The notes below the pieces were generated by a model, which was not told the DNA's origin, ran no database searches, and saw only the letters and a list, made by a program, of their open reading frames with translations. From Halobacterium hubeiense (GTDB lineage Archaea > Halobacteriota > Halobacteria > Halobacteriales > Halobacteriaceae), in NCBI RefSeq assembly GCF_001488575.1, contig NZ_LN831302.1:558001-622000 (forward strand): a stretch of 64,000 nucleotides of DNA. The letters run 5' to 3'. The first letter of the stretch is position 1. Each line of letters begins with the position of its first letter. This document shows, piece by piece, positions 7,624 through 41,166 of this stretch. The position numbers and the translations under genes were made by a program.

Positions 7624-8453
7624 GACCGCAGGACCTCCTCGCGCTGGGTGGCGTCGAGCGTCTCCGCTTCGAGGTCCATCGCGACCACCGCGGGCTTGAA
7701 CGCGCCGCCGTCGAAGAGGTCGTGGTCGCCGACGCTGGACTCCACGTAGCGCGTGAACGCGCGGCGCTCGGGCGGCAGCTCGCCGTACAGAATCTCCTCC
7801 TCGACGAGGTCGTAGACGGGGATGCGCGGCGTCAGCAGCGTGTTCTCGCCGACCACGGAGTCCTCGCCGACGACGAACCCGGAGGTGACCCGGCAGCCCG
7901 CGCCCAGCGAGACGCCGTCCTCGACGACGACGGGCGCGCTCTCGACGGGTTCGAGCACACCACCAATCAGGGTGTTCGCGCCGAGCTTCACGTCCTCGCC
8001 GATTTGCGCACAGGAGCCGACGGTGTCACAGGAGTCCACGAGTGTGCCGTCGCCGACGTGCGCGCCGATGTTCACGAACGCCGGGGACATCACGATGCAG
8101 TCCGAGCCGAGGTGCGCGCCGCGGCGGAGCACGGTGCCGTCGGGCGTGTTCCGCGTGCCGCGGTCGTAGAGGTCGTCGGTGTCCCGCAGCGGGAGCACGT
8201 CGTGGTAAGTGACGTCGCCGTACTCGCGGGGCTCGGTCTCGTGGAGTGCGAAGTTCAGGAGGACGCCGCGCTTGACCCACTCGACGGCCTCCCACTCGCC
8301 GCCGGACTTCTCGGCGGCGCGCACGTCCCCGGCTTCGAGCGCGTCGAGGAACGCTTCGAGCGTGTCCGCGTCGTCCGCGCTCGCGGTTTCGGCCGTCAGG
8401 TCGCCGTCTTCGTGTCGGTGCCACAGGTCTCGTACGTCAGATTCCAGACTCAT
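7620..8453 (-). CDS. dapD: Tetrahydrodipicolinate N-succinyltransferase
   Basis: Commits the pathway to the succinylase branch, using succinyl-CoA. 277 residues. The N-terminal third is helical (MSLESDVRDLWHRHEDGD). The centre is a left-handed beta-helix of hexapeptide repeats (MSPAFVNIGAHVGDGTLVDS onward) with the DapD-type VGSCAQIGEDVKLGANTLIG stretch. Starts at 8453 with a 4-base ATGA overlap with dapB. The presence of DapD together with DapE excludes the aminotransferase and dehydrogenase variants of the pathway for this operon. Confidence 0.93.
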   Translation of the reverse strand: MSLESDVRDLWHRHEDGDLTAETASADDADTLEAFLDALEAGDVRAAEKSGGEWEAVEWVKRGVLLNFALHETEPREYGDVTYHDVLPLRDTDDLYDRGTRNTPDGTVLRRGAHLGSDCIVMSPAFVNIGAHVGDGTLVDSCDTVGSCAQIGEDVKLGANTLIGGVLEPVESAPVVVEDGVSLGAGCRVTSGFVVGEDSVVGENTLLTPRIPVYDLVEEEILYGELPPERRAFTRYVESSVGDHDLFDGGAFKPAVVAMDLEAETLDATQREEVLRS

Positions 8454-9193
8454 AGTTCGGAAGCAACCTCCTCGAATCGGTAAAAGTCCGCAGGCTGGTC
8501 GGCGAGCCACGCGGCGGTGTCGAGCGCGCCCGCCGCGAACACCGACCGGTCGCCCGCGCGGTGGGTCAACTCCAGCACTTCGCCGTTCCCGGCGAGCAGC
8601 GCCTCGTGCTCGCCGGTGACGTCGCCGGCGCGGCGCGCGTGCACGCCGATTTCGCCCTCTTCGCGGGGCTGGTCGCCCACGCGGCCGTGGACGCGCTCGG
8701 AGTCGTCTCGCTCGTCCTCAATCCGGTCCAGCAGCACGTTCGCCGTGCCGCTGGGGGCGTCGCGCTTCCCGTTGTGGTGGGTCTCGGTGACCTCGACATC
8801 GTACTCGGGGAGCGACCCGACTGCCTGCTCGACCACGTCCAAGAGGGCCTGGATGCCCCGTGAGAAGTTCGCGCCGAGCAGGACGGGCGCGTCGCTGCCC
8901 GCGTCCCGGAGCGCGTCCAGTTGGTCGTCGTCGAAGCCCGTAGTGCCGACGACGATGGGGACGCCGGCGGCCGCGCAGGCGGTCACGTACTCCACGCTCG
9001 CCTCCGGCACGGTAAAGTCCACGACCGCGTCAGGATTCTCGGCCTCCACGAGCGACGCGAACTCGCCGGCGGGGTCGAGGTCGCTGCCGGGGTCGCGGGT
9101 CGTCGCGAACGCCACCTCGACGCCGCGCTCGGCGGCCTCCTCGCGGACCTCGCGCCCCATCCGCCCGGTCGCGCCGGTGACCCCGATTCTCAT
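8450..9193 (-). CDS. dapB: 4-hydroxy-tetrahydrodipicolinate reductase
   Basis: NAD(P)H-dependent second step of the diaminopimelate pathway. 247 residues. Rossmann GVTGATGRMGREV at the N-terminus; the catalytic TETHHNGKRDAPSGTA motif (His/Lys) is in the middle of the chain. ATGA overlaps at both ends, with dapA upstream and dapD downstream. Complete and of normal size. Confidence 0.95.
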   Translation of the reverse strand: MRIGVTGATGRMGREVREEAAERGVEVAFATTRDPGSDLDPAGEFASLVEAENPDAVVDFTVPEASVEYVTACAAAGVPIVVGTTGFDDDQLDALRDAGSDAPVLLGANFSRGIQALLDVVEQAVGSLPEYDVEVTETHHNGKRDAPSGTANVLLDRIEDERDDSERVHGRVGDQPREEGEIGVHARRAGDVTGEHEALLAGNGEVLELTHRAGDRSVFAAGALDTAAWLADQPADFYRFEEVASEL

Positions 9194-10095
9194 GCGGACA
9201 CCTCCTGTTCGTCGAGGGCGTCCAGCGCCTCACGGAGCCGCTCGCGCGTCTCCTCGGTGGCGTCGGTCAGCGGCGAGCGGTAGTTCGCGGGACCGTGGCC
9301 CAGAATCTCCTGAGCGGCCTTCACGGGAATCGGGTTCGTCTCCGCGAACAGCGCGCGGTTCAGCGGCTCCAGCTCCTGGTGGCGCCGGCGCGCGGTCTCG
9401 TAGTCGCCGTCGCGGGCCGACCAGACGAGGTCGCTGACGCGCTCGGGCTCGACGTTCGCGGTGACGCTGATGGTCCCGGTGCCGCCCACGGAGAGCACGG
9501 GCAGCGTCAGGCCGTCGTCGCCGGAGAGCACGCCGAAGTCCTCCTCGCGGGTGCGCTCGACGACCTCGCTGACCCGCGAGAGGTCGCCGCTGGCGGCCTT
9601 GTAGCCGACGATATTCTCGTGGCTCGCGAGCGCCTCGGCGGTCTCCACGGCGATGTTGCGGCCGGTGCGCGAGGGCACGTTGTAGATGATTTGGGGCGCG
9701 TCCACGCGGTCCGCTATCTCCCGGTAGTGGGCTTCCATGCCCTCGGGCTCGGGCTTGTTGTAGTACGGTGAAATCAACAGGAGAGCGTCGGCGCCCGCGT
9801 CCACGGAGCGCTGGGAGAGCCCCAGCGCCTCGTGCGTAGAGTTCGAGCCCGCGCCCGCGATAATCGGCACCTCGTCGCCGGCCTCGGCGACGACTGCCTC
9901 CACGACCTTGACGTGCTCGTCGTGGGTGAGCGTCGCGCTCTCGCCGGTCGAACCAACGGGCACGAGGCCGTCGACGCCGCGGTCGACGAGGCGTCGCGCG
10001 TGTGCTCGGAGTCGGTCGAAGTCGATGCTGCCGTCGGCCGTGAACGGCGTCGTCATCGCCGGGAAGACGCCGTTCACGAATGTTGTGTGGTCCAT
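9190..10095 (-). CDS. dapA: 4-hydroxy-tetrahydrodipicolinate synthase
   Basis: Condenses pyruvate and aspartate semialdehyde, the first committed lysine step. 301 residues, TIM barrel. The Schiff-base lysine is in IVGYKAASGDLSR, the catalytic tyrosine in IIYNVPSRTGRN, and the substrate loop is VPVGSTGESATLTHDEH. First gene of a coupled run dapA-dapB-dapD-lysA-dapF-dapE, so transcription should start in the 280-bp region upstream. lysC, asd and the aminotransferase are not in the window. Confidence 0.95.
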   Translation of the reverse strand: MDHTTFVNGVFPAMTTPFTADGSIDFDRLRAHARRLVDRGVDGLVPVGSTGESATLTHDEHVKVVEAVVAEAGDEVPIIAGAGSNSTHEALGLSQRSVDAGADALLLISPYYNKPEPEGMEAHYREIADRVDAPQIIYNVPSRTGRNIAVETAEALASHENIVGYKAASGDLSRVSEVVERTREEDFGVLSGDDGLTLPVLSVGGTGTISVTANVEPERVSDLVWSARDGDYETARRRHQELEPLNRALFAETNPIPVKAAQEILGHGPANYRSPLTDATEETRERLREALDALDEQEVSA

Positions 10096-10124
10096 CTGGG
10101 TCTGGGTGTCGCGTCGTCGGTGTG

Positions 10125-10156
10125 CGGGCCGTGCGTCCGTCGGCGGCCCGGCACGG
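10125..10156 (-). promoter_or_regulatory. GC hairpin(s) in the presumed dapA leader
   Basis: CGGGCC (10125-10130) can pair with GGCCCG (10145-10150), and CCGTGC (10129-10134) with GCACGG (10151-10156); the two stems exclude each other. They sit 30-60 bases upstream of the dapA start in a leader that lacks a close TATA element. A switch between the two stems would be a simple attenuator, but this is inference. Confidence 0.3.
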
Positions 10157-10267
10157 GAGTGCTACGCCCGCAGCGAGCCGTGCGTGTCGGCTGTGCTGCG
10201 TTTGCGTTTACCCGAGAAGGAGCCGGCACTCTCGTCGGCGTCGAACCGCGTCCCGAGAGCGCCACTC

Positions 10268-10287
10268 ATACGCACAAGTGTGGGTAT
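10268..10287. promoter_or_regulatory. 20-bp dyad, candidate operator upstream of the lysine operon
   Basis: ATACGCACAAGTGTGGGTAT has the symmetric form ATAC-n-CACA-nn-TGTG-n-GTAT, 16 of 20 positions matching. It lies 172 bases upstream of dapA and 88 bases upstream of the divergent phosphoesterase gene, in a region otherwise empty of genes. The size and symmetry suit a dimeric helix-turn-helix repressor such as an Lrp/AsnC-type protein; the identity is not known. Confidence 0.45.
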
Positions 10288-10340
10288 CGGGGAACAAAGA
10301 GTTGTCGCCGCACGCAAGGACTGCCGAGCGACGCATCGAG

Positions 10341-10350
10341 AGCTTTTTGC
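10341..10350 (+). promoter_or_regulatory. TATA-like element of the metallophosphoesterase gene
   Basis: AGCTTTTTGC lies 26-35 bases before the ATG at 10376, the usual leaderless spacing. Confidence 0.45.
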
Positions 10351-10375
10351 CGCGTCTGACCGCAGGTCCGTGTAG

Positions 10376-11017
10376 ATGCTAGTCCTCGGGGACGCACACG
10401 CGAGCACGCCCGACCGGCGGCAGTCGCTGTTCGCCGCGTACCGCGCGGCTGACGCCGACGTCGCGCTCCAGGCCGGGGACATCATGTACTACGACCTCCC
10501 GATTCCCACCTACTTCATCGGCGGCAACAACGAGGACTTCGACGTCGTCGAGGCGCTGCGTCACGGCCGCATCGAGAGCGACGACGTCTCGAACGCCTAC
10601 CTCCTCCACAGCACCGCCGAGACCGTCGCCGGCCTGCGCGTCGCCGGCCTCTCCGGGAACTACGCGCCCACGCAGTTCGAGAAGTCCCGCGAGCAGCTCT
10701 ACGACGACCGCCGCCGCCACTTCGTCCGCGAGGACGTCGAACGGGCCAAGCGGCTCGACGACGTGGACGTCTTCCTCGCCCACGAAGCCCCCCACGGCCT
10801 CCCGGTCACCGAGGACTACGAGGTCGGCTGCGAGCACATCGACGATATCCTCGACGCGCTCGAACCGGAGCTCTGTCTGGTCGGCCACCACCACGAGCAC
10901 GCCGAGAGCGAGTTCGGTCCGACGCGCGTGGTCTCGCTCGCCCCCGCGTGGGAGTCGTACTACGAACTGGACCCCGACTCGCTGTCGCTGACGCGCCACG
11001 AGACGCCGCCCGCCTGA
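10376..11017 (+). CDS. Calcineurin-like metallophosphoesterase
   Basis: 213 residues with the metal-site motifs of the family in order: GDAHASTPDRR (GD-H variant), LQAGDIMYYD, GGNNEDFD (GNHD variant), LAHEAPHG, and LVGHHHEHAE near the end. Short archaeal members of this type are uncharacterised; the substrate cannot be read from sequence. It is divergent from the lysine operon across a 280-bp spacer and is followed 47 bases later by the NYN gene on the same strand. Confidence 0.8.
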   Translation: MLVLGDAHASTPDRRQSLFAAYRAADADVALQAGDIMYYDLPIPTYFIGGNNEDFDVVEALRHGRIESDDVSNAYLLHSTAETVAGLRVAGLSGNYAPTQFEKSREQLYDDRRRHFVREDVERAKRLDDVDVFLAHEAPHGLPVTEDYEVGCEHIDDILDALEPELCLVGHHHEHAESEFGPTRVVSLAPAWESYYELDPDSLSLTRHETPPA

Positions 11018-11064
11018 CCGGCCGGTCGCGTACCTTCTTTACGGCGGCGGCGCGTACGGCGCGT

Positions 11065-11562
11065 ATGGCTCCAATCCAACCGGGGCAGCGGGTCGCCGTG
11101 CTGGCCGACTCGCAGAACCTCTATCACTCCGCGCAGAGCGTCTACTCTCGGAACATCGACTACTCCTCGCTGCTCGAGAAGGCCGTGCAGGGACGGGAAC
11201 TCACGCGCGCCATCGCGTACGTCATCCGCGCGCAGGCTGAAGACGAGGACAGCTTCTTCGACGCGCTCCGGGACATCGGCTTCGAGACGAAGATCAAGGA
11301 CATCAAGACGTTCGGCGACGGCTCCAAGAAGGCCGACTGGGACGTCGGCATGAGCCTCGACGCGGTGACGCTCGCCGACCACGTCGACACCGTCGTGCTC
11401 TGCACGGGCGACGGCGACTTCTCGCGGCTCTGCAACCACCTCCGCCACGAGGGCGTGCGCGTGGAAGTGATGGCCTTCGGGGAGTCTACGGCCGAGGAAC
11501 TCATCGAGGTCGCGGACGCGTTCGTCGACCTCAGCGAGCGAGAAGAGACGTTCCTGCTCTAG
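11065..11562 (+). CDS. NYN (LabA/DUF88-type) domain protein, predicted RNase
   Basis: 165 residues, one NYN/PIN-like domain. Acidic positions typical of the metal site are visible: VAVLADSQNLYHS (D and N), KKADWDVGMSLDAVTLADHV, and VVLCTGDGDFSRLCNHLRHE. NYN domains are PIN-related and usually cut RNA; this protein's target is unknown. The start MAPIQPGQRV (11065) has CTTCTTTACG about 25-33 bases upstream. The stop shares CTAG (11559-11562) with the convergent small membrane gene. Confidence 0.8.
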   Translation: MAPIQPGQRVAVLADSQNLYHSAQSVYSRNIDYSSLLEKAVQGRELTRAIAYVIRAQAEDEDSFFDALRDIGFETKIKDIKTFGDGSKKADWDVGMSLDAVTLADHVDTVVLCTGDGDFSRLCNHLRHEGVRVEVMAFGESTAEELIEVADAFVDLSEREETFLL

Positions 11563-11747
11563 ACCATCCGGCCGTCGGTGCCGGTCGAACCCATCAGCAG
11601 CGACCCGGCCGCCAGCAGCGTCGTCGCGACGCCCGCCACGGCGAGCAGCGTCGTCGTCCCCGACGGGTCGAGGCTCGCCCACACCAACATCGCGGTACCG
11701 ACAGCGAGCAGCACCGCCGCAATCCCGATTTTCGCGGTCGTGTTCAT
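11559..11747 (-). CDS. Small two-helix membrane protein
   Basis: 62 residues from MNTTAKIGIAAVLL. Two hydrophobic helices (about residues 5-22 and 28-46) separated by a short WASLDPSGTT turn; the polar tail ends TGTDGRMV. No family recognised. CACATAAACGC at 11770-11780 on the opposite strand reads as GCGTTTATGTG, about -23 to -33 from 11747, which supports this start over the ATG at 11786. Confidence 0.6.
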   Translation of the reverse strand: MNTTAKIGIAAVLLAVGTAMLVWASLDPSGTTTLLAVAGVATTLLAAGSLLMGSTGTDGRMV

Positions 11748-11768
11748 GGCTCCGGGTTGCGTCCCACA

Positions 11769-11815
11769 CCACATAAACGCATCCACTTCGCGGACGCGAA
11801 CGAAGTGGCTTTACG
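11769..11815. promoter_or_regulatory. Divergent TATA elements (small membrane gene / PUA gene)
   Basis: Minus strand: GCGTTTATGTGG (11769-11780), 22-33 bases before 11747. Plus strand: GGCTTTACG (11807-11815), 23-31 bases before 11838. Both fit leaderless starts. Confidence 0.45.
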
Positions 11816-11837
11816 CCCGCCAGCCGACCGTCGAGGT

Positions 11838-12308
11838 ATGCAGGACGCGGACGTGCACTCGCTGCGGACCGTCGCCGACTACCAGTTCGGAGCCGGCGCG
11901 GGCGCGGCGCTGTTCCCGCCGGAGGAACGCTTCGAGGTGCAGCGCTCGACCACCGGCCGCCCCCAGCAGGTCGCCCGCGACGACGGCGCCCGGCTCGTCT
12001 CCGTCGGGATGGACGGCCGCTTCACGCTCGGCGCAGCCGGCGGCCGCCGGCTCGTCGACAACCTCGCACATCCCGCGGCCCGAGTGGTCGTCGGCGACGA
12101 CAGCGAGCCGTTCGTCCGCGACGGGAAGAACGTCTTCGCGAAGTTCGTCCAGACCGTCGACCCGGACGTCCGCGCCGACGACGAAGTCGCGGTCGTCCAC
12201 GAGCGCGGCGACCTGCTGGCGGTCGGCCGCGCGGAACTGGACGCCGGCTCGATGCTCGACTTCGACACCGGGATGGCAGTGATGGTGCGGGATAGCGTCC
12301 AGAAGTAG
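11838..12308 (+). CDS. PUA domain protein, RNA-binding type
   Basis: 156 residues. The C-terminal half (FAKFVQTVDPDVRADDEVAV through AVGRAELDAGSMLDF) has the PUA fold pattern, with GKNVFAKFV at its start as in archaeal stand-alone PUA proteins related to the archaeosine transglycosylase C-terminus. The N-terminal half (LRTVADYQFGAGAGAALFP) is the pre-PUA region commonly seen with it. The likely role is binding of a structured RNA; the partner is not known. It lies upstream of nac-trmI on the same strand, a translation-related run. Confidence 0.75.
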   Translation: MQDADVHSLRTVADYQFGAGAGAALFPPEERFEVQRSTTGRPQQVARDDGARLVSVGMDGRFTLGAAGGRRLVDNLAHPAARVVVGDDSEPFVRDGKNVFAKFVQTVDPDVRADDEVAVVHERGDLLAVGRAELDAGSMLDFDTGMAVMVRDSVQK

Positions 12309-12387
12309 TCCCCGGACGAGCGAAGCGACCGAGTGCCACAAGGGGTCGTTCGTCACCCTTTTCACGCCGCGACGCGACGCTCCGGGC

Positions 12388-12777
12388 ATGTTTGGCGGAG
12401 GCGGCATGAACCCCCAGAAGATGCAGCAGATGATGAAACAGATGGGCATCGACGTCGACGAGATCGATGCCACCGAGGTCGTCATCAAGCAGGCCGACGG
12501 CGACCAGCTCGTCTTCGACGATCCGGACGTCACGAAGATGGACGCCCGCGGCCAGGAGACCTACCAGATTATCGGCGAGCCCGAGACCGTCGAGAGCGCC
12601 GGCGAAATCGAGGCCGAGGCGGAGTCCGCGGAGTCCACGGAGTCCGACGAGGCGGGCATCCCGCAGGACGACGTCGAGCTGGTCGTCCAGCGCACCGGCG
12701 CCACCGAGGCCGACGCGCGAGCGGCGCTGGAGGCGACCGACGGCGACCTCGCCGCGGCCATCTCCCGGCTGGAGTGA
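12388..12777 (+). CDS. nac: Nascent polypeptide-associated complex protein (archaeal NAC)
   Basis: 129 residues. The N-terminal MFGGGGMNPQKMQQMMKQMG is the archaeal NAC signature, followed by the NAC beta-barrel strand region (IDATEVVIKQADGDQLVFDD). An acidic linker (about 73-88) leads to a C-terminal UBA domain (QDDVELVVQRTGATEADARA). It binds nascent chains at the ribosome exit. CCCTTTTCACG lies about 25-34 bases before the ATG. Its TGA overlaps the GTG of trmI, so the two are translationally coupled. Confidence 0.95.
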   Translation: MFGGGGMNPQKMQQMMKQMGIDVDEIDATEVVIKQADGDQLVFDDPDVTKMDARGQETYQIIGEPETVESAGEIEAEAESAESTESDEAGIPQDDVELVVQRTGATEADARAALEATDGDLAAAISRLE

Positions 12778-13493
12778 TTCTGCTCGTTCGGGAGGACCGG
12801 GAGTTCCTCGCTGCGCCGGGCGACGAAGTCCACACCGACCTCGGCGTCATCGACGTCCCGGAGAGCGTCGAAGCCGGCGACACGGTAGAGACGCACCTCG
12901 GCGAGCCGTTCACGGTCCGGGAGCTGCGCGGTCCGGACCTGTTCAACCACCTCGACCGGACGGGCGCGCCGATGATGCCCAAGGACATCGGGCTGGTCGT
13001 CGGCCACACGGGGGCGTCGCGGGGCGACCGCGTGCTCGACGCCGGCACCGGGACCGGCGTGCTCGCCGCCTACCTCGGCCGACTGGGCGCGGACGTCGTG
13101 ACCTACGAGCGCGACTCCGAGTTCGCCGAGGTCGCGCGGGGGAATATGGAACTCGCCGAAGTCGCGGACGCGGTGGACGTCCGCACGGGCGACGTGACCG
13201 ACCACCTCGACGACCTCGCGGAGTTCGACCTGCTGACGCTGGACACGGAGAACGCGCCGACGGTCGTCGAGCGCGCGGCCGACCTGCTGGTCTCGGGCGG
13301 CTACGCCGCCGTCTACTCGCCGTTCGTGGAGGACGCCCGCGAGGTCAACCTCGCCGCCGAGGACGCGGGCCTGGCGAACGTGGAGACTGTCGAGACGATT
13401 CAGCGGGAGATGGACCTCGACGAGCGTGGCTCGCGGCCGTCGACGGCGGGCGTCGGCCACACCGGCTACCTGACGTTCGCGCGGAACCCGTAG
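12774..13493 (+). CDS. trmI: tRNA (adenine-N1)-methyltransferase, TrmI family
   Basis: 239 residues. An N-terminal beta-barrel-like region (LLVREDREFLAAPGDEVHTD) precedes an SAM-binding Rossmann domain: motif I VLDAGTGTGVLAAYLG, motif II VVTYERDSEF, and FDLLTLDTENAP where other members have an LD-P type motif. MMPKDIGLVVGHTG before motif I is typical of TrmI/Trm61 (m1A57/58 of tRNA). The start is GTG 12774 inside the nac stop (GTGA). The segment after the end of nac is open in a longer frame, but only this start gives the family N-terminus. Confidence 0.9.
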   Translation: MILLVREDREFLAAPGDEVHTDLGVIDVPESVEAGDTVETHLGEPFTVRELRGPDLFNHLDRTGAPMMPKDIGLVVGHTGASRGDRVLDAGTGTGVLAAYLGRLGADVVTYERDSEFAEVARGNMELAEVADAVDVRTGDVTDHLDDLAEFDLLTLDTENAPTVVERAADLLVSGGYAAVYSPFVEDAREVNLAAEDAGLANVETVETIQREMDLDERGSRPSTAGVGHTGYLTFARNP

Positions 13494-13638
13494 CTGTCCG
13501 GCGGCTCGGTTTCGGGGACGGCTCGCCGCCTCGCCGCATCCACCGTCCCGTACTCGATTACTGCATAGCCGGGGCTGGTCGCGTTCTCGTATTTGAATGT
13601 CCGCCCGCGTAGCGGCCGGTCAGGTGATGGCGTCCCCA

Positions 13639-13813
13639 AGCATCCGCGAGCGAAGCGAGCGGTTCACTGCGCGAACGAGCGTCGCAAGTGAGCGCAGGGA
13701 GTTTTTAGCGTAGCTTTTTGCGAGCCGAGCGGGACCGGAGGTCCCGCTGGCCGTGCGAACGGCGCAAAGCGCCGTGAGCAGACGGGGGTGCGCCTACGGC
13801 GCACCCCCCGCAG
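13639..13813 (+). repeat. Modular hairpin repeat, copy A
   Basis: Non-coding element between the converging trmI and TFS genes. Parts in order: AGCAT; a GC hairpin (13644-13662); GGTTCAC; a T-rich block at 13702-13722 that contains TTTTTAGCGTAGCTTTTT; a 9-bp stem AGCGGGACC/GGTCCCGCT (13728-13748); a 7-bp stem ACGGCGC/GCGCCGT (13759-13775); an 11-bp stem GGGGGTGCGCC/GGCGCACCCCC (13784-13808); then GCAG. Copies B (27591-27802) and C (35101-35221, inverted) share the layout. Confidence 0.75.
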
Positions 13814-13826
13814 TAAAAAGGTCCTC

Positions 13827-14141
13827 TTAGTTGTCGTCTTCGCGCCAGCGGTGTTCGCACTCCGTGCAGATGAAAAAGCGCGTCTCGGATTCGTCGGCGG
13901 ACCGAATCTGTTGCATGTACCAGTGGGCTCGGTCGTTCTCGCAGTTCGGGCAGACCACTTCCGTCGTCGGTAGCCCGCGGTCTTGGGCGTCGCTGACGTC
14001 GACGATTTCGGTCTCCTCCTGCCCTTCGGTGACGACGAACGAGGCGTCGGGGTCTTTCGGCTGTTTGTTCCCGCAGCTACCGCAGACCCAGAGGTCGTCC
14101 TCCGCTTTCATCATCGAGCCGCACTCGTCGCAGAACTCCAT
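13827..14141 (-). CDS. tfs: Transcription factor S (TFIIS-like RNA cleavage factor)
   Basis: 104 residues, full-length archaeal TFS. The N-terminal RPB9-like zinc ribbon has CDECG and CGSCG pairs. The C-terminal TFIIS-like ribbon has CPNC and CTEC and the acidic tip SADESETRFF, whose Asp-Glu pair enters the RNA polymerase active site to stimulate cleavage of backtracked RNA. Minus-strand GCTTAACTTAC lies about 22-32 bases before the start. No stop-proximal signal is clear; the hairpin repeat begins immediately downstream. Confidence 0.95.
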   Translation of the reverse strand: MEFCDECGSMMKAEDDLWVCGSCGNKQPKDPDASFVVTEGQEETEIVDVSDAQDRGLPTTEVVCPNCENDRAHWYMQQIRSADESETRFFICTECEHRWREDDN

Positions 14142-27529: not shown

Positions 27530-27590
27530 CGGCCCCGGCTACCGGTTCGGCGGCTTTGAGCGTACCGGAATCTGCGCCTGTTCACTCACG

Positions 27591-27802
27591 AGCATCCGCG
27601 AGCGCCATACGGCGCTCGCGGTTCACCGAGCGCGAACGACGCGAGGCGCGAAGCGCCTCGGAACGTGCGAGCGGCGAGCGAAGCGAGCCGTGAGCAGTGA
27701 GCGCTCGGGCCGACGACTGAGCGGAGTGAAACGAAGCGAAGGAGGAGTGCTTTTTCCGCAAGTTTTTGCCGAGCGGGGTGCGCCGGAGGCGCACCCCCGC
27801 AG
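27591..27802 (+). repeat. Modular hairpin repeat, copy B
   Basis: Begins AGCAT, then an 11-bp stem CCGCGAGCGCC/GGCGCTCGCGG (27596-27621) and GTTCAC as in copy A. Next an 8-bp stem CGAGGCGC/GCGCCTCG with GAA loop (27642-27660), GAGCGAAGCGAGC units, two T-runs (CTTTTTCCGCAAGTTTTTGC, 27750-27769) and a 10-bp stem GGGGTGCGCC/GGCGCACCCC (27775-27797), ending GCAG. The last stem has the same arms as the last stem of copy A. The 27530-27815 interval contains nothing else. Confidence 0.7.
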
Positions 27803-27815
27803 CGCAAAACGTGCG

Positions 27816-28670
27816 TTAGTAGTGCCGCGCTTCGACTTCTTCGGCGAGCGCGCGAGCGAGCCGCGCGCCGACCTTGCACGTGGTGTAGGTGGTGTCGTCG
27901 TAGGCGGCGACGGGTCGGACCTCCCACGTGGTGTTCGTGAGGAACACCTCGTCGGCGCTCCGCAGGTCTCGGGGCCGGTAGTGGCCTTCCTCCACCGGGA
28001 CGCCGAGGTCGTCGGCGAGTTCGAGGACCGCCCAGCGCGTGATGCCGGGGTTGACCGGGAGGTCGAGGCTGGGCGTGTGGAGGGTGTCGTCGTCGACGAA
28101 GAAGACGTTGCTCGCGGCGCCACCGGTGACGCGGCCGTCGGCGTCGAGGAGGACGGCTTCGTCGGCGTCGCCGGCGTCGATGCGCGCGAGAACCCCGTTG
28201 AGGTAGTTGTGGGTCTTCGCGACCGAGGGGAGCGCGTCGTCGGCGACGCGCTCGACCGCGGCGGTCACGGCGGTCGCGGGCTCGCTCCAGACGCGTTCGC
28301 CGTCCACGCCGCCACGCGGCAGGGGGTCAGTGACGACGACGACCGTCGGGTCCGCGTCGCCGTCGGGCGTCAGCGACCCGGAGTGGGTGCCGCGGGAGAC
28401 AGTGAGGCGGACGCGCGCGTCCGTGAGGTCGTTGGCGGCGAGCGTGGCGTGGACGCGGCCGCGGAGGTCGCGCTCGGAGAGCCCGTGGTCGATGCCGAGC
28501 GCGTTGCAGGTCGCCTGCAGGCGCTTGGCGTGGGCGGCCCACGCGAACACCTGGCCGCCGTACGCGCGCAGCGTCTCGACGGCGGCGTCGCCGTACTGGA
28601 ACCCGCGGTCGCGGACGCTCACGGTGGCGTCCTCGGCGGCCACGAGCTCGCCGTCTACGTGCGAGTACAC
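27816..28670 (-). CDS. pabC: Branched-chain aminotransferase / aminodeoxychorismate lyase family
   Basis: 284 residues, class IV PLP fold. The PLP lysine is in PSVAKTHNYLNGVLARI and the phosphate-binding end in GGAASNVFFVDDDTLH. The N-terminus YSHVDGELVAAEDATVSVRD resembles haloarchaeal PabC (4-amino-4-deoxychorismate lyase). pabA/pabB are not adjacent, so a D- or branched-chain amino-acid transaminase cannot be excluded. GTG start at 28670. Confidence 0.75.
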   Translation of the reverse strand: MYSHVDGELVAAEDATVSVRDRGFQYGDAAVETLRAYGGQVFAWAAHAKRLQATCNALGIDHGLSERDLRGRVHATLAANDLTDARVRLTVSRGTHSGSLTPDGDADPTVVVVTDPLPRGGVDGERVWSEPATAVTAAVERVADDALPSVAKTHNYLNGVLARIDAGDADEAVLLDADGRVTGGAASNVFFVDDDTLHTPSLDLPVNPGITRWAVLELADDLGVPVEEGHYRPRDLRSADEVFLTNTTWEVRPVAAYDDTTYTTCKVGARLARALAEEVEARHY

Positions 28671-33922: not shown

Positions 33923-35080
33923 ATGGACTCGATTGTGCAGGACGCCATCGACGAAGCCGAGGAGGACTCGGCTTCGGAGGGCGGCGGCACCCCAGCCGAG
34001 GGCGCGTCCGCCAGCGTTCCAACCGGGGAGATGACCGACGACGAACTCGAAGACGTCCTCCAGGAACTCCAGACGAGCATCACCGTCGTGGGCTGTGGCG
34101 GCGCCGGCTCGAACACCATCGACCGCATGTTCGAGGAGGGCATCCACGGCGCGTCGCTGGTCGCCGCGAACACCGACGTCCAGCACCTCGTCGAAATCGA
34201 GGCCGACACCAAGATTCTCATGGGCCAACAGAAGACCCAGGGCCGGGGCGCCGGCTCGCTCCCGCAGGTCGGCGAGGAAGCCGCCCTCGAATCACAGGAC
34301 GAAATCCGGGACTCCATCGAGGGCTCGGACATGGTGTTCGTCACCGCCGGCCTCGGCGGCGGCACCGGCACCGGCTCCGCGCCCGTCGTCGCGAAGGCCG
34401 CCCGCGAGGCCGGCGCGCTCACCATCGCCATCGTCACCACGCCGTTCACCGCCGAAGGCGAGGTCCGCCGCACGAACGCCGAAGCCGGCCTCGAACGCCT
34501 CCGCGACGTCGCCGACACCGTCATCGTCGTCCCCAACGACCGCCTCCTCGACTCGGTCGGCAAGCTCCCCGTCCGAGAGGCGTTCAAGGTCTCGGACGAA
34601 GTCCTCATGCGCTCCGTGAAGGGCATCACAGAACTCATCACCAAGCCCGGCCTCGTCAACCTCGACTTCGCCGACGTTCGGACTGTCATGGAGAAGGGCG
34701 GCGTCGCCATGATCGGCCTCGGCGAAGCCGACTCCGACGCCAAGGCCGCCGACTCCGTCAAGTCCGCGCTGCGCTCCCCGCTGCTCGACGTCGACATCTC
34801 CTCCGCGAACTCCGCGCTCGTCAACGTGACCGGCGGCCCCGACATGAGCATCGAGGAGGCCGAGGGCGTCGTCGAACAGCTCTACGACCGCATCGACCCC
34901 GACGCCCGCATCATCTGGGGGACCAGCGTCGACGAGGACATCGAAGGCGAGATGCGCACCATGGTCGTCGTCACCGGTGTCGACTCCCCGCAGATTTACG
35001 GCCGCAACGACGCCCCCGAACCCGAACCGGAGCCGGACGGCGGCGACAGCGAAATCGACGACATCGACTACGTCGAATAG
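33923..35080 (+). CDS. ftsZ: Cell division protein FtsZ (FtsZ1-like)
   Basis: Tubulin-like GTPase forming the division ring. 385 residues. N-terminal acidic tail [15 protein letters not shown]; nucleotide loop [16 protein letters not shown]; tubulin signature [21 protein letters not shown]7 synergy loop [17 protein letters not shown]. The acidic linker [18 protein letters not shown] ends the chain. It resembles FtsZ1 of haloarchaea more than FtsZ2 by its N-terminal tail (memory-based). In many archaea secE and nusG follow directly; here an opposed gene and a repeat intervene. Confidence 0.95.
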
Positions 35081-35082
35081 TA

Positions 35083-35092
35083 CCTTTTTCCG
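35083..35092 (+). terminator. T-run after ftsZ
   Basis: CCTTTTTCCG begins about 3 bases after the ftsZ stop, a typical archaeal terminator position. Confidence 0.4.
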
Positions 35093-35100
35093 CCTCGGGT

Positions 35101-35221
35101 GTCCTCGCTCCCGCTGGTCGCTGCGGGCACCACTTGGCGCAAAAAGCTACGCTAAAAAGACCCGCCGTCGCGGGGCTCCGCCCCGCTCCGGCGGTGAACA
35201 GCGCGCTACGCGCGCTGATGC
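35101..35221 (-). repeat. Modular hairpin repeat, copy C (inverted)
   Basis: Read on the minus strand: GGCAT, a stem CAGCGCG/CGCGCTG (35199-35217), GTTCACC, a stem GCGGGGC/GCCCCGC (35170-35186) within a larger CCGCC/GGCGG pairing, then the T-rich block (35138-35158) identical over 21 bases to 13702-13722 of copy A, and a stem CCCGC/GCGGG (35110-35127). The distance from CAT to the T-block is about 62 bases, matching copy A. It lies between the converging ftsZ and amphi-Trp genes. Confidence 0.75.
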
Positions 35222-35244
35222 CGACGTCCTGCCGCGACTGCTCT

Positions 35245-35529
35245 CTACTCGATTTCGAGTTCGCCGCTCTCGCTGGCTGTGTCGCCGTCCTCGGGCCACT
35301 CGAGTTCGAACTCGACGCTCAGTTCCTTCGGGCCGTCGGTCGCCCCCTCGCGTTCGGCTTTGACCTCGAACGTCGGACGGCTCGGCGGGTCGAGCGTGAC
35401 CTCGTCGCCGCCCGCTTTCAGCGTGATTCCCTTGCCGGATTCGAGGTTGTCGGCGATAGTGCGGAGGTAGGTGGCGATTTCCTCGCGGCTGCGATCGCTC
35501 TCGGACTCGAACAGGACTTCTTCGGGCAT
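35245..35529 (-). CDS. amphi-Trp domain protein (second copy)
   Basis: 94 residues. The amphi-Trp layout: MPEEVLFESESDRSREEIAT, a helix IATYLRTIADNLESGKGITL, strands EVTLDPPSRPTFEVK, and a Trp near the end in LSVEFELEWPEDGD, with an acidic tail. Better match to the family consensus than the gene at 804-1043. Function unknown. It points towards ftsZ and splits the ftsZ/secE-nusG neighbourhood together with repeat copy C. Confidence 0.8.
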   Translation of the reverse strand: MPEEVLFESESDRSREEIATYLRTIADNLESGKGITLKAGGDEVTLDPPSRPTFEVKAEREGATDGPKELSVEFELEWPEDGDTASESGELEIE

Positions 35530-35594
35530 ACGAGCCGACAGTACGCCGGCCGAACGGATAAACGAGCGGGCCGCCGGTCTCGCTCGGCATCAAT

Positions 35595-35603
35595 AGATAA
35601 AAG
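35595..35603 (+). promoter_or_regulatory. TATA element of secE-nusG
   Basis: AGATAAAAG, 25-33 bases before the secE ATG. Confidence 0.55.
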
Positions 35604-35627
35604 AGCGCTCGCCGACTCAACACGTGT

Positions 35628-35801
35628 ATGGACGTTCCCCTAGAGCTTTCCGCGTATACGCGCGTGCTCCGGCTGGCGAGCACGCCGTCGTGGGAGGAGT
35701 TCTCCCAGATTTCGAAAATCGCTGGCGCCGGCATCCTGCTGGTCGGACTGCTGGGCTTCGTCATCTTCCTGGTGATGGAAGGCGTCACGTCGGTGATATA
35801 A
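35628..35801 (+). CDS. secE: Protein translocase subunit SecE
   Basis: 57 residues, one membrane helix. A polar N-terminal helix ([20 protein letters not shown]) precedes the transmembrane segment [19 protein letters not shown], ending GVTSVI. The SWEEF..ISK..G pattern is the Sec61-gamma/SecE signature. It clamps the SecY channel. The gene is followed one base later by nusG, the classical archaeal/bacterial pair, which confirms the assignment. It has its own promoter after the insertion that separates it from ftsZ. Confidence 0.93.
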
Positions 35802-35802
35802 G

Positions 35803-36240
35803 ATGGGCGTGTACGCCGTCAAGACCACTGCGAGCCAGGAGCAGACCGTCGCCAGCATGATTGCCAACCGCGAGGCCGACGAGATTCACGCGGTGCTGGC
35901 GCCGGACGCGCTCACCAGCTACGTGATGGTCGAAGCAGACGACCACAACATCATCGAGCGCGTGATGGAGGAGATTCCCCACGCGCGCAGCCTCGTCCCC
36001 GGTGAGTCCGGCATCAGCGAGGTCGAGCACTTCCTCTCCCCGAAGCCCGACGTCGAGGGCATCGCGGAGGGCGACATCGTCGAACTCATCGCCGGCCCGT
36101 TCAAGGGCGAGAAGGCCCAGGTCCAGCGCATCGACGAGAGCAAAGACCAGGTCACCGTCGAACTGTACGAGGCGACCGTCCCGATTCCCGTGACGGTGCG
36201 GGGCGACCAGATTCGCGTGCTCGACTCCGAAGAACGCTAG
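35803..36240 (+). CDS. nusG: Transcription elongation factor Spt5 (NusG)
   Basis: 145 residues. NGN domain residues 1 to about 83 ([29 protein letters not shown]) and a C-terminal KOW domain ([20 protein letters not shown]). It binds the RNA polymerase clamp with Spt4 and keeps transcription processive; the archaeal form lacks the bacterial extra insert. It begins one base after the secE stop, so the pair is cotranscribed. Confidence 0.95.
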
Positions 36241-36251
36241 CGCGTTCCGAC

Positions 36252-36980
36252 TCAGTTCTCGCCGGCCGGTTCGACAATCGTGTTCTCGAGCGTGCCGACG
36301 CCCTCGTAGGTGATTTCGACGGTGTCGCCGGGTTCGACGAGCCCGGGGTTCGCGGGGCTGCCGAACGCGACGACGTCACCGGGCTGGAACGTGAACCGCT
36401 CGGAGAGGAACGAGACGACCTCGTAGGGGTCGAACAGCATCAGTTCGGTGTTGGCTTCCTGCCGGCGCTCGCCCGCGACGTCGGTGTGCATGTCGATGCT
36501 CGTGGGGTCGAGGTCGGTTTCTATCCACGGGCCGAGCGGCCCGGACCCGTCGAAGGCCTTCCGGGCGGTGCGGCCCGGCTGGTCGAGCGCGTCGAGGTCG
36601 TTCATGATAGTGAACCCGCGGAGCACGTCCGGCACGTCGGCCTCGTCCACGCGGTGACAGCGCTCGCCGACGACCGCCGCGAGTTCGCCCGCGTACGTCA
36701 GTTCGTCGGTGAACGTCGGGTACGGCACGTCGTCGCCGTGGCCGACCACGGAGACCGGCGGTTTGATGAAGAAGTCGGGCTGCTCGGGCCGCTCGTAGTC
36801 CATCTGGTCGAGCGTCTCCGCGTAGTTGCGGCCGACGCAGTACAGCGCCGACGGGTCGCAGGGCGGCGCGAGCGTGCCGTCCTCGCCGACGACGTACTCG
36901 GCGTCCTCGGTGGCGACGACGCCGTCGCGGTACTCGCCCTCGACGAGGCCGTCGTCGGTCCGGAGTCGTGCGAGTCGCAT
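36252..36980 (-). CDS. Fumarylacetoacetate hydrolase family protein
   Basis: 242 residues. FAH fold, with metal-site segments LYCVGRNYAETLDQM, VVGHGDDVPYPTFTDELTYA (where the family has E-x-E) and FTIMNDLDALDQPG; the C-terminal part has VVAFGSPANPGLVEPGDTVE. The class includes fumarylpyruvate hydrolases, decarboxylases and acylpyruvases; the substrate is not decidable. Convergent with nusG (11 bases between stops). GTAAGCGATTTGCC on the minus strand near 37002-37014 is a plausible TATA region. Confidence 0.82.
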   Translation of the reverse strand: MRLARLRTDDGLVEGEYRDGVVATEDAEYVVGEDGTLAPPCDPSALYCVGRNYAETLDQMDYERPEQPDFFIKPPVSVVGHGDDVPYPTFTDELTYAGELAAVVGERCHRVDEADVPDVLRGFTIMNDLDALDQPGRTARKAFDGSGPLGPWIETDLDPTSIDMHTDVAGERRQEANTELMLFDPYEVVSFLSERFTFQPGDVVAFGSPANPGLVEPGDTVEITYEGVGTLENTIVEPAGEN

Positions 36981-37030
36981 GGCTGGACGTCACGGAGGCG
37001 CGGCAAATCGCTTACGAACGCGGCGAGAAG

Positions 37031-37372
37031 CTAGCTCGTGGTGGCGTGCGCGGCGTCGGTGGCCTCGGCGACGTCGATGGGTTCGTCGCTCAGGAGGTCT
37101 TCGAGCACCGCCGGGTCGAGCGCGTCGGCGACGTCGTCGAGCACGCGCTCGCGCTCGCGGATGGCTTCGGCGTCGCCGTCGTAGAACCGGACGTACTCGG
37201 CGCGCGTGTGCTCGCGGAGCCCGTGCTTGATGGCGAAGAAGCCCTCGGGGACCGTCTCCCCGCAGATTTCGCACTCGTGGGCGTCGTGGTCCGCGACCTG
37301 ATGGGCCAACAGCGCCTCGACGCTCCCGAACGTCGACCCACATCCGACAATCGCGCACTCCCACGCAGACAT
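37031..37372 (-). CDS. Two-finger C2H2 zinc protein
   Basis: 113 residues. Finger 1: CAIVGC...HQVADH (C-x4-C-x12-H-x4-H). Finger 2: CEIC...HGLREH (C-x2-C-x12-H-x4-H). Between and after them are acidic helices. C2H2 fingers with such spacing are seen in small haloarchaeal proteins that may bind nucleic acid or protein. A clear TATA element (37396-37404) precedes the ATG. No neighbour suggests a pathway. Confidence 0.72.
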   Translation of the reverse strand: MSAWECAIVGCGSTFGSVEALLAHQVADHDAHECEICGETVPEGFFAIKHGLREHTRAEYVRFYDGDAEAIRERERVLDDVADALDPAVLEDLLSDEPIDVAEATDAAHATTS

Positions 37373-37395
37373 ACGCCTCTGTAACCTGAGCGCGC

Positions 37396-37404
37396 AAATA
37401 AACC
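37396..37404 (-). promoter_or_regulatory. TATA element of the two-finger gene
   Basis: Minus-strand GGTTTATTT, 24-32 bases before the ATG at 37372. The rest of the 220-bp spacer (37405-37592) is less GC-rich than average and shows no gene or repeat. Confidence 0.55.
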
Positions 37405-37592
37405 TTGTGTCGCCTTTTCGACCACTGAACCCGACGAGTCAGCCGTTCGTCACTGCTCTGTCAGACAAATTCTCGGACGCGAGACGCGGTTCAGGCAGTT
37501 GATACCACTTGACAACCGAAGCCTGATACGGGCGTTTCGAGCGCTATCGCGGCCGTTCGGTGTTCAGGAGAGGAAGTCTCCCGGCGAGTGAC

Positions 37593-38756
37593 TTACTGCT
37601 GTTCGCCGCTCTGCCGGTAAATCAGATTCCGCTGAATCTCGTTGGCGCCCTCGTAGATGACCGGGATGCGGGCGTCCCGGTAGACGCGGGCGATGCGGCG
37701 GTCGGTGAGAATCGAGCGGCCGCCGTGGAACTGCATCCCCTGCTCGGCGTTGTCGACGGCGACCTCCGTGGACTTCGTCTTCGCCATCGCCGCCCACAGG
37801 CCGGGGTTGTCGTACTCCTCGACCTTGCGGGCGGCGCGGTAGTTCAGCGCGCGCGCGGCCTCGAACTCCAGTCGCATGTCCGCGAGGCCGTGCTGGACGG
37901 CCTGGAAGTCCGCGACGTGGCGGCCGAACTCCTCGCGCTCGTGCACGAAGTCCCACGCCTCTTCGAGCGCCGCAGCGGCGAGGCCGAGGCCGTGCCCGCC
38001 GACGACGACGCGGCCGTGGTTGAAGAAGTCTGCGAGCATCATGAACCCGGCTCCCTCGCTCCCGATGAGGTTCTCCTCGGGAATCCGGCAGTCGTCGAAG
38101 ACGATGTGGGCCTGCTTGGACGCGCGCATCCCCATCTTCTCGGGGATGTGCTCGGCGACGTAGCCGTCGGCGTCCGTCGGCACGATGAAAAGCGAGTAGT
38201 CCATGTAGCGGTCGCCGGTGTCGCCGGTCTTGGCGTACACCGTCACCCAGTCGGCTTCGACGCCGTTGCCGATCCAGTACTTCTCGCCGTTGAGCACGTA
38301 CTCGTCGCCGTCCTTGTCGGCGGTCGTGTGCATCCCGGCGAGGTCCGACCCGACGTCGGGCTCGGAGACAGCCAGCCCCGTAATCTGGTCGTTGGCCGCG
38401 ACCGGGCGGAGGTACCGTTCCTTCTGGTCGTCGTTGCCGTACTCCTCGAGCATCTCCGCGCCGAAGCTCGCGAGCTGGAGCGTCAGCGCGATGCCGGCGT
38501 CCGCGCGGTAGAACTCCTCGGCGATGGCCAGCATCTGTTCGAGGTCGAGGCCGCGGCCGCCGTACTCCTCGCCGATGTCCTGGGCGACGAGCCCGGCGTC
38601 CATCCCGGCCTCCAGAATCTCCCACGGGTACTCGCCGGTCCGGTAGAACTCCTCGGCGTTCGGCGCGATGTGCTCCTCGGCGAACTCGCGGGCCTCGTGT
38701 TTGACGTCGACCGCGTGCTCGGGAACCACGTCCTCGGAGAGCAGGTTCAGACTCAT
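37593..38756 (-). CDS. Acyl-CoA dehydrogenase
   Basis: 387 residues. FAD-dependent first step of beta-oxidation type chemistry. Mid-domain signature GLAVSEPDVGSDLAGM and KYWIGNG; C-terminal helical domain with the catalytic base in VIYEGANEIQRNLIYRQ. Substrate chain length not decidable. The start MSLNLLSEDVVPEHAVDV has minus-strand CCGTTTATG (38780-38788) 25-32 bases upstream. It stands alone, not next to an enoyl-CoA hydratase. Confidence 0.93.
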   Translation of the reverse strand: MSLNLLSEDVVPEHAVDVKHEAREFAEEHIAPNAEEFYRTGEYPWEILEAGMDAGLVAQDIGEEYGGRGLDLEQMLAIAEEFYRADAGIALTLQLASFGAEMLEEYGNDDQKERYLRPVAANDQITGLAVSEPDVGSDLAGMHTTADKDGDEYVLNGEKYWIGNGVEADWVTVYAKTGDTGDRYMDYSLFIVPTDADGYVAEHIPEKMGMRASKQAHIVFDDCRIPEENLIGSEGAGFMMLADFFNHGRVVVGGHGLGLAAAALEEAWDFVHEREEFGRHVADFQAVQHGLADMRLEFEAARALNYRAARKVEEYDNPGLWAAMAKTKSTEVAVDNAEQGMQFHGGRSILTDRRIARVYRDARIPVIYEGANEIQRNLIYRQSGEQQ

Positions 38757-38868
38757 ACCGGCCGTTGGAGCGCCACGGGCATAAACGGCCGCGAACGTTC
38801 GACAGTCCGCGCGGAGTTTATCCGCCGGAACCGTAAGCCGCTAAACCTCGGCTCGCGAACTCGGGGAC

Positions 38869-39624
38869 GTGCCGACGACACGGGTCGACCTCCACGCGAA
38901 GGTACTCGACGACGACGTGGTGCGCCGGGCGAAGGCGGCTGGCGTCGACGTGCTGGTGTACGCCCCGCACTTCACGCGACTGCCTGACGCGCGCGAGCGC
39001 GCTGCGGCGTTCTCCGACGACGACCTGCTGGTGGTGCCCGGCCGCGAGGTGTTCACGGGGTCGTGGCGCGACCGCAAGCACGTGCTCGCGGTCGGCCTCG
39101 ACGACCCGGTGCCGGACTTCGTGACGCTGGACGGCGCGTTCGCGGCGTTCCGCGAGCAGGGCGCCGCCGTCCTCGCGCCGCACCCGGAGTTCCTCACGGT
39201 GAGCCTGACGGCCGCCGACGTCGAGCGGTTCCGCGAGGACGTGGACGCCGTGGAGACGTACAATCCCAAGCACTTCCCGTGGGACGACGACCGCGCGAGC
39301 GCGCTCGCCGACGCTTACGACATCCCCGGGTTCGCGTCCTCGTACGCGCACCGCCCCGAGACCGTCGGCGGCGTGTGGACGGAGTTCGACGCCGACATCC
39401 AGTCGGAGGCGGACCTCGTGGACGCCCTCAAGTCCGGCGTCCCGCGCCGCACCTACCACCAGCGCAACCCCCGGTTCCGGGCGCGCGAACTCGCGGAGAA
39501 GGCCCATCTCGCGTACGAGAACACGTGGGAGAAAGTCGACCGCCTCCTCCTCTCGGGTATGGAGCCCACGCACCCGCGCCACATCGCGTACGGCGGCGAG
39601 TTCGACGACGTCGCCGTCTACTAG
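38869..39624 (+). CDS. PHP domain protein with altered first metal motif
   Basis: 251 residues, GTG start (MPTTRVDLHAKVLDDDVVRR). PHP fold: VDLHAKV, DVLVYAPHFTRLPDA, VVPGREVFTGSW, VLAPHPEFLT, and a late GFASSYAHRPETVGG. A catalytic PHP site normally begins D-x-H-x-H; here the second His is Lys (DLHAK), so one metal ligand is missing. Catalysis may be lost or altered. The last 50 residues (RNPRFRARELAEKAHLAYEN) are an extra helical tail. Its stop overlaps that of the next gene in CTAG. Confidence 0.72.
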   Translation: MPTTRVDLHAKVLDDDVVRRAKAAGVDVLVYAPHFTRLPDARERAAAFSDDDLLVVPGREVFTGSWRDRKHVLAVGLDDPVPDFVTLDGAFAAFREQGAAVLAPHPEFLTVSLTAADVERFREDVDAVETYNPKHFPWDDDRASALADAYDIPGFASSYAHRPETVGGVWTEFDADIQSEADLVDALKSGVPRRTYHQRNPRFRARELAEKAHLAYENTWEKVDRLLLSGMEPTHPRHIAYGGEFDDVAVY

Positions 39625-40103: not shown

Positions 40104-40152
40104 TACTCGGGGCGAGAGCACGCGGGCACGTCACCGTTTCGGCACGCGGCCG

Positions 40153-40671: not shown

Positions 40672-40711
40672 ACCTCCGGGTACCGAACGACCGAGCAAGA
40701 AGGTGGTGGCG

Positions 40712-41062: not shown

Positions 41063-41166
41063 GGGCGAACTGTCTCGTGGCTGTCGAATCAACCGCACAG
41101 TACCGGCAAACGACGCCGCGTTTCCGCGGGCGAAAGAGCCACGTAGCGCCACGGAGACGCTGGCGT

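Follow-up and report, generated by a model that had tools for sequence, protein, structure and literature searches.

A dispersed, strand-asymmetric hairpin element at gene 3' ends in Halobacterium hubeiense and its possible role as a two-way transcription terminator

The spacer between a TrmI-like gene and TFS in Halobacterium hubeiense carries one copy of a dispersed, modular hairpin element. About 42 copies with all of its words were found in the census, located mainly at gene 3' ends. We propose an insertion element that settles at gene 3' ends, where it would terminate transcription from both directions and act as an insulator. This reading was made from sequence, with termination and insulation as its predicted parts, and its chance of being right is about even.

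Results

Architecture of the element

The window analyzed is a stretch of 64,000 nt from contig NZ_LN831302.1 (positions 558,001 to 622,000), and contains copies A, B and C of the element (Table 1). On S1, the strand bearing the T-block, the element begins with AGCAT, hairpin 1, TTCAC and hairpin 2. These are followed by a T4-6 run, a word of 6-8 bases and a second T4-6 run with GC. Next come between one and three hairpins and a GC or variant of it, and the unit closes with an A4-6 run and a short complementary word.

A sequence-only reading of the window had described copy A as a series of parts at 13639-13813, running from AGCAT through a hairpin, GGTTCAC, the T-block and stems to GCAG. All of these parts are present in that order. 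The end has to be moved: AAAAA and GGTCC continue to 13826 and contact the TFS stop codon (13827-13829). Read on the opposite strand, this tail is GGACC-TTTTT, just 3' of the stop codon. The same reading had noted an exact T-block repeat, and the 21-mer TTTTTAGCGTAGCTTTTTGCG is indeed found at 13702-13722 (+) and 35138-35158 (-), with 0.00 such matches expected by chance at up to 3 mismatches. The equal CAT-to-T-block distance reported for these two copies stands for them (61 nt in A and 62 nt in C) and does not extend to the family. The distance from the end of hairpin 1 to the T-block is 24-124 nt across family copies, which rules out a constant spacing as a family rule. Copy B differs from A and C in its T-block word, which is TTTTTCCGCAAGTTTTTGC.

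Table 1. Coordinates of copies A, B and C and of neighboring genes in the window
Feature	Position	Strand	Composition and remarks	Basis
Copy A head module	13639-13667	+	AGCAT (13639-13643), hairpin 1 (CCGC GA GC-GAA-GC GA GCGG, 13644-13662), TTCAC (13663-13667); outer pairs co-vary	Module detected by pattern
Copy A hairpin 2 region	13668-13701	+	Immediately 5' of first T-run	
Copy A T-block	13702-13721	+	T5, word AGCGTAGC, T5, GC	
Copy A hairpin 3 array	13722-13809	+	Perfect stems of 9 bp (13728-13748), 7 bp (13759-13775) and 11 bp (13784-13808)	Read from sequence
Copy A tail	13810-13826	+	GCAGT, AAAAA, GGTCC	
TFS (TFIIS/RPB9 zinc ribbons)	13827-14141	-	Gene with copy A at 3' end	PF01096 4.5e-18; PF02150 7.4e-07
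TrmI-like tRNA methyltransferase	12774-13493	+	Convergent with TFS	PF08704 5.2e-13
Copy B head module	27590-27626	+	GAGCAT, hairpin 1, TTCAC	
Copy B T-block	27751-27769	+	T5, word CCGCAAG, T5, GC	
Copy B hairpin 3 and tail	27770-27815	+	Hairpin 3, AAAA, word CGTGCG; adjoins stop of aminotransferase gene	
Aminotransferase gene	27816-28670	-	Stop codon adjoins copy B	
Copy C head module	35192-35222	-	GGCAT, hairpin 1, TTCAC	
Copy C T-block	35139-35158	-	Identical to copy A T-block	
Copy C hairpin 3 and tail	35081-35138	-	Hairpin 3, AAAAA, word GGTA; adjoins ftsZ stop codon	
ftsZ	33923-35080	+	Stop codon adjoins copy C	TIGR00065, 430.6 bits

A separate feature lies just behind trmI (13494-13610, minus strand). 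This stretch is conserved in Halobacterium, even where the repeat is absent. It has a TTCAAATAC-like promoter box, ends in CGCCGGACAGC and contains a co-varying stem, GGGACGG/CCGTCCC, which in relatives is GGGGCGG/CCGCCCC and GGGTGG/CCACCC. It could be a small H/ACA-like RNA gene and is listed here as a candidate.

The census covered 2.4 Mb of the main contig in a genome of 3.13 Mb. The pattern was a T-run, 6-9 bases, a T-run, a GC-rich stretch and an A-run, and 6 matches judged unrelated were removed. The repeat family described from the window is borne out: the genome contains 14 close matches to the T-block, and the control 0. A strict paired-word detector, which finds each copy on both strands, gave 26 matches, compared to 6 in the reversed sequence and 0-2 in shuffles. 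The AGCAT-hairpin 1-TTCAC head module was detected by pattern in 27 of the 42 copies. Compact copies (L233, L243) consist of the T-block, hairpin 3 and tail only. The lengths of the two T-runs and the A-run are coupled. All three are equal in 37/42 copies: 5/5/5 in 23, 4/4/4 in 13 and 6/6/6 in one.

Class I copies are anchored at an opposing stop codon

The tail is 3-10 nt from the stop codon of the gene reading into the element in 32 of the 42 copies. Gene contexts were taken from a simple ad hoc gene finder, with a few misassigned. In two more copies (126828 and 2174893), the stop codon is visible in the tail and the gene was missed by the gene finder. The tail at 2042376 is located 6 nt 3' of a tRNA-Leu gene. 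Similar stop-codon anchoring is found for 24 of 34 copies in other genera.

The upstream gene is convergent in 26 copies and tandem in 16. Among spacers of at least 150 nt, the element is present in 19 of 70 convergent and 13 of 239 tandem spacers (P=2e-6). Calculated per gene end, the convergent enrichment is 19/140 versus 13/239 (P=0.007). At 446.7-447.0 kb, two convergent genes each have their own copy, arranged head to head.

The genes that carry the element include those for DNA polymerase II small subunit, EngB, a NusA-like factor, EF-2, LonB, MetRS, FtsZ, DnaJ, geranylfarnesyl diphosphate synthase, two Cdc48, HisRS, thermosome, aRF1, adenosylhomocysteinase and TFS. By our own classification, about 17 of 31 carriers are core genes, compared to 3 of 30 random genes (P=3e-4). 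Of these 30 control genes, all followed by a spacer, 10 fell into named families and about three were core genes. Where TFS orthologs carry the element, a T4-5 run is located about 10 nt 3' of the stop codon. No such T-run is found in five of six TFS orthologs that have no intact element, and the sixth retains a remnant.

Tandem G.A pairs and GNA loops mark one strand

Many of the stems that look imperfect become regular once tandem G.A pairs are allowed, as in hairpin 1 of copy A. The loops are mainly C-GNA-G triloops, and no GNRA tetraloop was found in the element hairpins. GNA minihairpins are unusually stable as DNA. Across the 42 copies, S1 holds 38 instances of the motif GA-xy-GNA-y'x'-GA and the other strand none. 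This bias is the same with a convergent (23:0) or a tandem (15:0) upstream gene. Upstream of the T-block, the motif is found 35:0 on S1 versus the other strand in H. hubeiense, 35:0 in other Halobacterium and 21:1 in other genera, and the ratio of GNA to TNC loops in H. hubeiense is 40:6. In hairpin 3, the motif count is 3:0 in H. hubeiense, 14:0 in other Halobacterium and 6:0 in other genera (23:0 over all sets), with GNA to TNC loops at 20:10 in H. hubeiense. Since the G.A/GNA signature is confined almost wholly to S1, we infer that S1 is the strand that folds. As to the folding molecule, the GNA preference leans toward DNA and the T-runs toward RNA.

Hairpins of the G.A type also occur beyond the element. 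They are found in 101 spacers of the main contig (positions 1-2400000), 75 of which have no T-block. The T-block-free G.A/GNA hairpin arrays (for example at 385670, 475674 and 802415) are located mostly between a gene promoter and its neighbor, often just upstream of the gene.

Words and stems vary as pairs

The T-block word and the tail word change together. The pairs include CGTAGC or CGTAGA with GGTACG, CGCAAG with GTGCG, CCCAAG with GTGGG, and CCGAGC with GGTCG. Copies and species share kinship, and the permutation results here are therefore guides and not probabilities: the summed word match in the H. hubeiense copies is 133, with a maximum of 102 in 2000 permutations, and 146 of 216 column pairs are Watson-Crick in 72 distinct word pairs from all genera, with a maximum of 107 in 5000 permutations. 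Paired changes are also seen at orthologous sites. Behind a thermosome gene (L244) with 94% identity in its DNA, a relative has AGCGTAGC/GGTAC where H. hubeiense has CCCCAA/GTGGG, and further cases are found at L298, L303 and L282. A word pair at 2105919 (-) in H. hubeiense, TTTTTATCTGACTTTTTGG ... CGAAAAATTTAGG, no longer matches, and relatives carry AGCGTAGC/GGTAC or GGTCC there.

The outer pair of hairpin 1 is C-G, A-T or T-A, set between the invariant AGCAT and TTCAC flanks. It is Watson-Crick in 36 of 37 distinct hairpins, compared to at most 26 in 1000 permutations, which upholds the earlier claim of compensatory exchange. That claim had been taken as a sign of selected structure. The covariation agrees with this, and is insufficient alone, because palindrome-templated mutation also yields perfect stems. 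Such events do occur, since a hairpin is flipped between sister species. The strand-specific tandem G.A pairs are stronger evidence that one strand folds.

Class II copies lie between duplicated gene ends

Copies with no opposing stop codon at the tail (class II) are often located 3' of the upstream gene's stop codon, and past them the end of this gene is repeated in direct orientation. In H. hubeiense, where the control pairing reached 16, the duplication is 79 bp with four mismatches at 2162920 and 28 bp exact at 281134. At 1382786, it is 22 bp exact and derives from a tRNA-Leu 3' end, with a third copy within the tRNA itself. Among 2335 genes, the two strongest gene-end duplications within about 500 nt downstream both enclose an element. 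The interval inside these two pairs is 138 and 217 nt of non-coding DNA.

In other genomes, duplications of 16-106 bp that begin 0-11 nt past the tail are found for 15 of 30 non-anchored copies and for none of 55 anchored ones. Some of the 15 depend on each other, being close neighbors (L324, two tandem copies, counted twice) or the same site across species. The 106-bp duplicates, in G196 (L260), are exact and are the candidates for the youngest insertion. Target duplications, a feature raised by the sequence-only reading, are seen in class II, while anchored copies have none and the length is not fixed.

Filled and empty sites can be compared at the gene ending at 2163052. Both element and duplication are present in 3 of 13 species (H. 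hubeiense, G093 and G196), and neither is present in 10, three of which are 95-96% identical at the protein level. At this site, the two gene ends within one genome are more alike than those of another species. This suggests that the duplication either was made from the host gene and then homogenised, or arose by repeated insertion. Precise loss through recombination between the duplicates is possible, hence the direction of change is not proven.

Two further observations concern similar arrangements. At 1382300-1383150, the three 22-bp copies of the tRNA-Leu 3' end around the element resemble scars of integrative elements. Near 1850886, two copies of a gene end (33 bp, two mismatches) enclose 76 nt of DNA that is rich in hairpins and has no T-block.

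Distribution and turnover

By TFS protein, the nearest named relatives are Halobacterium sp. CBA1126, KA-4 and TGN-42-S1. The TFS copy is present in 7 of 13 Halobacterium genomes and decayed or absent in the others. Behind TFS, the same architecture is built with other words in Halorussus, Halomarina, Halostella, Halococcus, Haladaptatus, Natrinema and Natrialba. A loose T-block pattern matches 164 of 194 genomes of the class, far exceeding the reversed control in some (65 versus 1 in G072) and not rising above it in many, so that presence in each genome is not claimed. Many orthologous genes have no element, indicating that it is not required.

The hairpins change quickly on this frame. Behind genes that are 95-96% identical (L224, L235), the frame is kept and the hairpins are replaced, with one flipped. 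Two of the seven Halobacterium TFS copies have a hairpin inserted inside the T-block word. Split T-blocks (L247 = L135 and L248 = L136; near 2385475 in H. hubeiense) read TTTTTAGCGT, CTTCCGAGC...GGAAGG and more, then CGTAG(C/A)TTTTTGC, with CGT flanking the inserted hairpin on both sides.

Copies A and C are the breakpoints of a 21-kb inversion in a sister genome (G035). There, window positions 13783-35109 run opposite to the segments 8001-13592 and 35139-41993, which share one orientation, and one recombinant site has lost its T-block. Another genome (G093) is collinear with the window over the A-C region. A general breakage of synteny at copies was not borne out: one break was found in 36 testable flanks, compared to 0 in 78 control pairs. 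Only the A-C inversion stands, as a single event.

Discussion

Our analysis suggests an element that combines gene-end insertion with termination on both strands. A two-way terminator fits because T-runs are present on both strands, the distance to the stop codon is tight and convergent spacers are favored. An insertion element that uses gene ends fits because of the class II duplications and the empty sites. In the proposed mechanism, a gene reading into the tail would meet a T4-6 run 3-10 nt past its stop codon, and its transcript would end there. The opposite transcript, from a convergent neighbor or antisense in tandem settings, would fold hairpins 1 and 2 and then meet two T-runs about 13 nt apart before entering the gene. 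The T-block word and the tail complement would close a stem around hairpin 3. If both strands terminate, no RNA would hold both the word and its complement, so RNA pairing is insufficient to account for the word covariation. Class II copies would be insertions with target duplication behind the upstream gene's stop codon. Hairpins would be renewed by DNA-level palindrome copying, and copies would recombine with each other; both the insertion enzyme and the copying mechanism are presumed here. Mobility and termination are compatible, as a unit with its own terminator could be tolerated behind a stop codon and may persist at strongly used genes.

The terminator part is consistent with earlier work. 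T5C alone gives 95% termination in Haloferax in vivo (PMC7237163), and archaeal termination uses a U-rich tract and aCPSF1, with a hairpin not strictly needed (PMC7515710). The H. hubeiense genome encodes aCPSF1. Several findings do not fit easily. The G.A motif of hairpin 3 is found only on S1 although it lies 3' of the S1 T-runs, the S1 bias persists in tandem settings, and class I copies have no target duplication.

A selfish mobile element, moved as folded single-stranded DNA or by an integrase at gene 3' ends, is possible but unlikely as the whole explanation. It would survive behind stop codons since insertion there does little harm, and its T-runs would keep it harmless with no gain to the host. 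The gene-end duplications, the clean empty sites and the confinement of the G.A motif to S1, strict in every module and regardless of gene context, would all be expected, as would C-GNA-G triloops in place of GNRA tetraloops, given the stability of GNA minihairpins as DNA. An IS200/IS605 family transposase is encoded in the genome (L025:7752-8129 (+), NF033573). The preference for convergent spacers and core genes, together with the close spacing of 3-10 nt, speaks instead for selection on termination, and no linked enzyme or constant end sequence is known.

Selection may also act on the T-runs alone, as ordinary archaeal terminators, with hairpins and duplications as by-products of palindrome-templated mutation and recombination. 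The loop flip between sister species, the wholesale replacement of hairpins, their insertion within the T-block of relatives and the A-C inversion agree with this. We consider it improbable, because palindrome correction would erase tandem G.A mismatches and would have no strand preference, whereas these are retained on one strand only. In addition, the invariant AGCAT and TTCAC border co-varying pairs. It is very unlikely that S1 codes for a small structured RNA or a signal for RNA processing. The S1-biased structure upstream of the T-block would suit such an RNA, but a search upstream of the head module showed no promoter-like AT peak at a constant distance, and no Rfam family matched above the gathering cut-off, with only chance-level matches at relaxed thresholds.

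The sequence-only reading had offered a terminator, a mobile MITE-like unit or a chromosome-organising repeat. The predicted terminator role is supported by the T-runs, the stop-codon distance and the convergent enrichment. Mobility agrees with the variable presence at orthologous sites and the class II duplications, and a classical MITE is ruled out by the missing constant terminal repeats. For chromosome organisation there is the one 21-kb A-C inversion, and 35 of 36 other testable copies are syntenic.

Comparison with known systems shows partial likeness. Like aCPSF1-assisted archaeal U-tract (T5C) terminators, the element has a T4-6 run just past the stop codon on one strand and behind hairpins on the other. 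Unlike them, it is a dispersed repeat whose parts keep one order, whose variable words are complementary and whose run lengths are coupled, and it has hairpin arrays and target duplications. Bacterial bidirectional intrinsic terminators (A-run, GC hairpin, T-run) are also palindromic, have a T-run on both strands and serve convergent genes. In the element, the polarity around hairpin 3 is reversed (T-run, hairpin, A-run), and hairpins 1 and 2 and the two T-runs serve one strand. A GC hairpin is followed directly by a T-run on S1 only, whereas the opposite strand has the T-run before the hairpin.

REP/BIME sequences are likewise multicopy palindromes behind stop codons with strand-asymmetric structure. 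The stems of the element are not conserved in sequence, and its modular order includes a T-block and tail. The constant GTAG or CGTC tag of REP/BIME, which stands beside a conserved imperfect palindrome, is absent, as the words vary (CGTA, CGCA, CCCA, CCGA, TCCA, TCGA and others). REP/BIME have a TnpA_REP (RAYT) transposase as partner; in H. hubeiense, the IS200/IS605 family transposase named above was seen. MITEs and integrative elements at gene 3' ends share non-coding insertion, variable presence and, in one class, gene-end duplication. In contrast to MITEs, complementarity is limited to the T/A runs and a short, variable pair of words, and the duplications are of variable length (16-106 bp), unlike short, fixed-length target-site duplications. 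The arrangement typical of integrative elements, a duplicate of the gene 3' end flanking the insert and an empty site with one copy, is found in one class only, with no integrase gene or cargo between the duplicates. No description of the element or its repeat words, and no matching REP, MITE or terminator, was found in the open-access literature searched; this absence is weak evidence.

A wider reading is tentative, and we think it probably does not hold in full. The element may belong to a new type of insertion system found across the haloarchaeal class, in which a non-coding unit of 75-260 bp, folded on one strand, inserts exactly behind stop codons. This reading includes sheared G.A pairs, GNA triloops, duplications to about 100 bp, its own two-way terminator and matched variable words exchanged as pairs.

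Accounts of archaeal termination usually speak of a bare U-tract. An ordered, dispersed element with strand asymmetry behind core genes would define a class of terminator open to genome-wide tests in laboratory haloarchaea. Should the insertion reading be right, it would be a mobile unit equipped with its own terminator, and the dated sites with and without it could be studied. The fast turnover of hairpins on a fixed frame and the inversion between copies show palindromes evolving and rearranging archaeal chromosomes.
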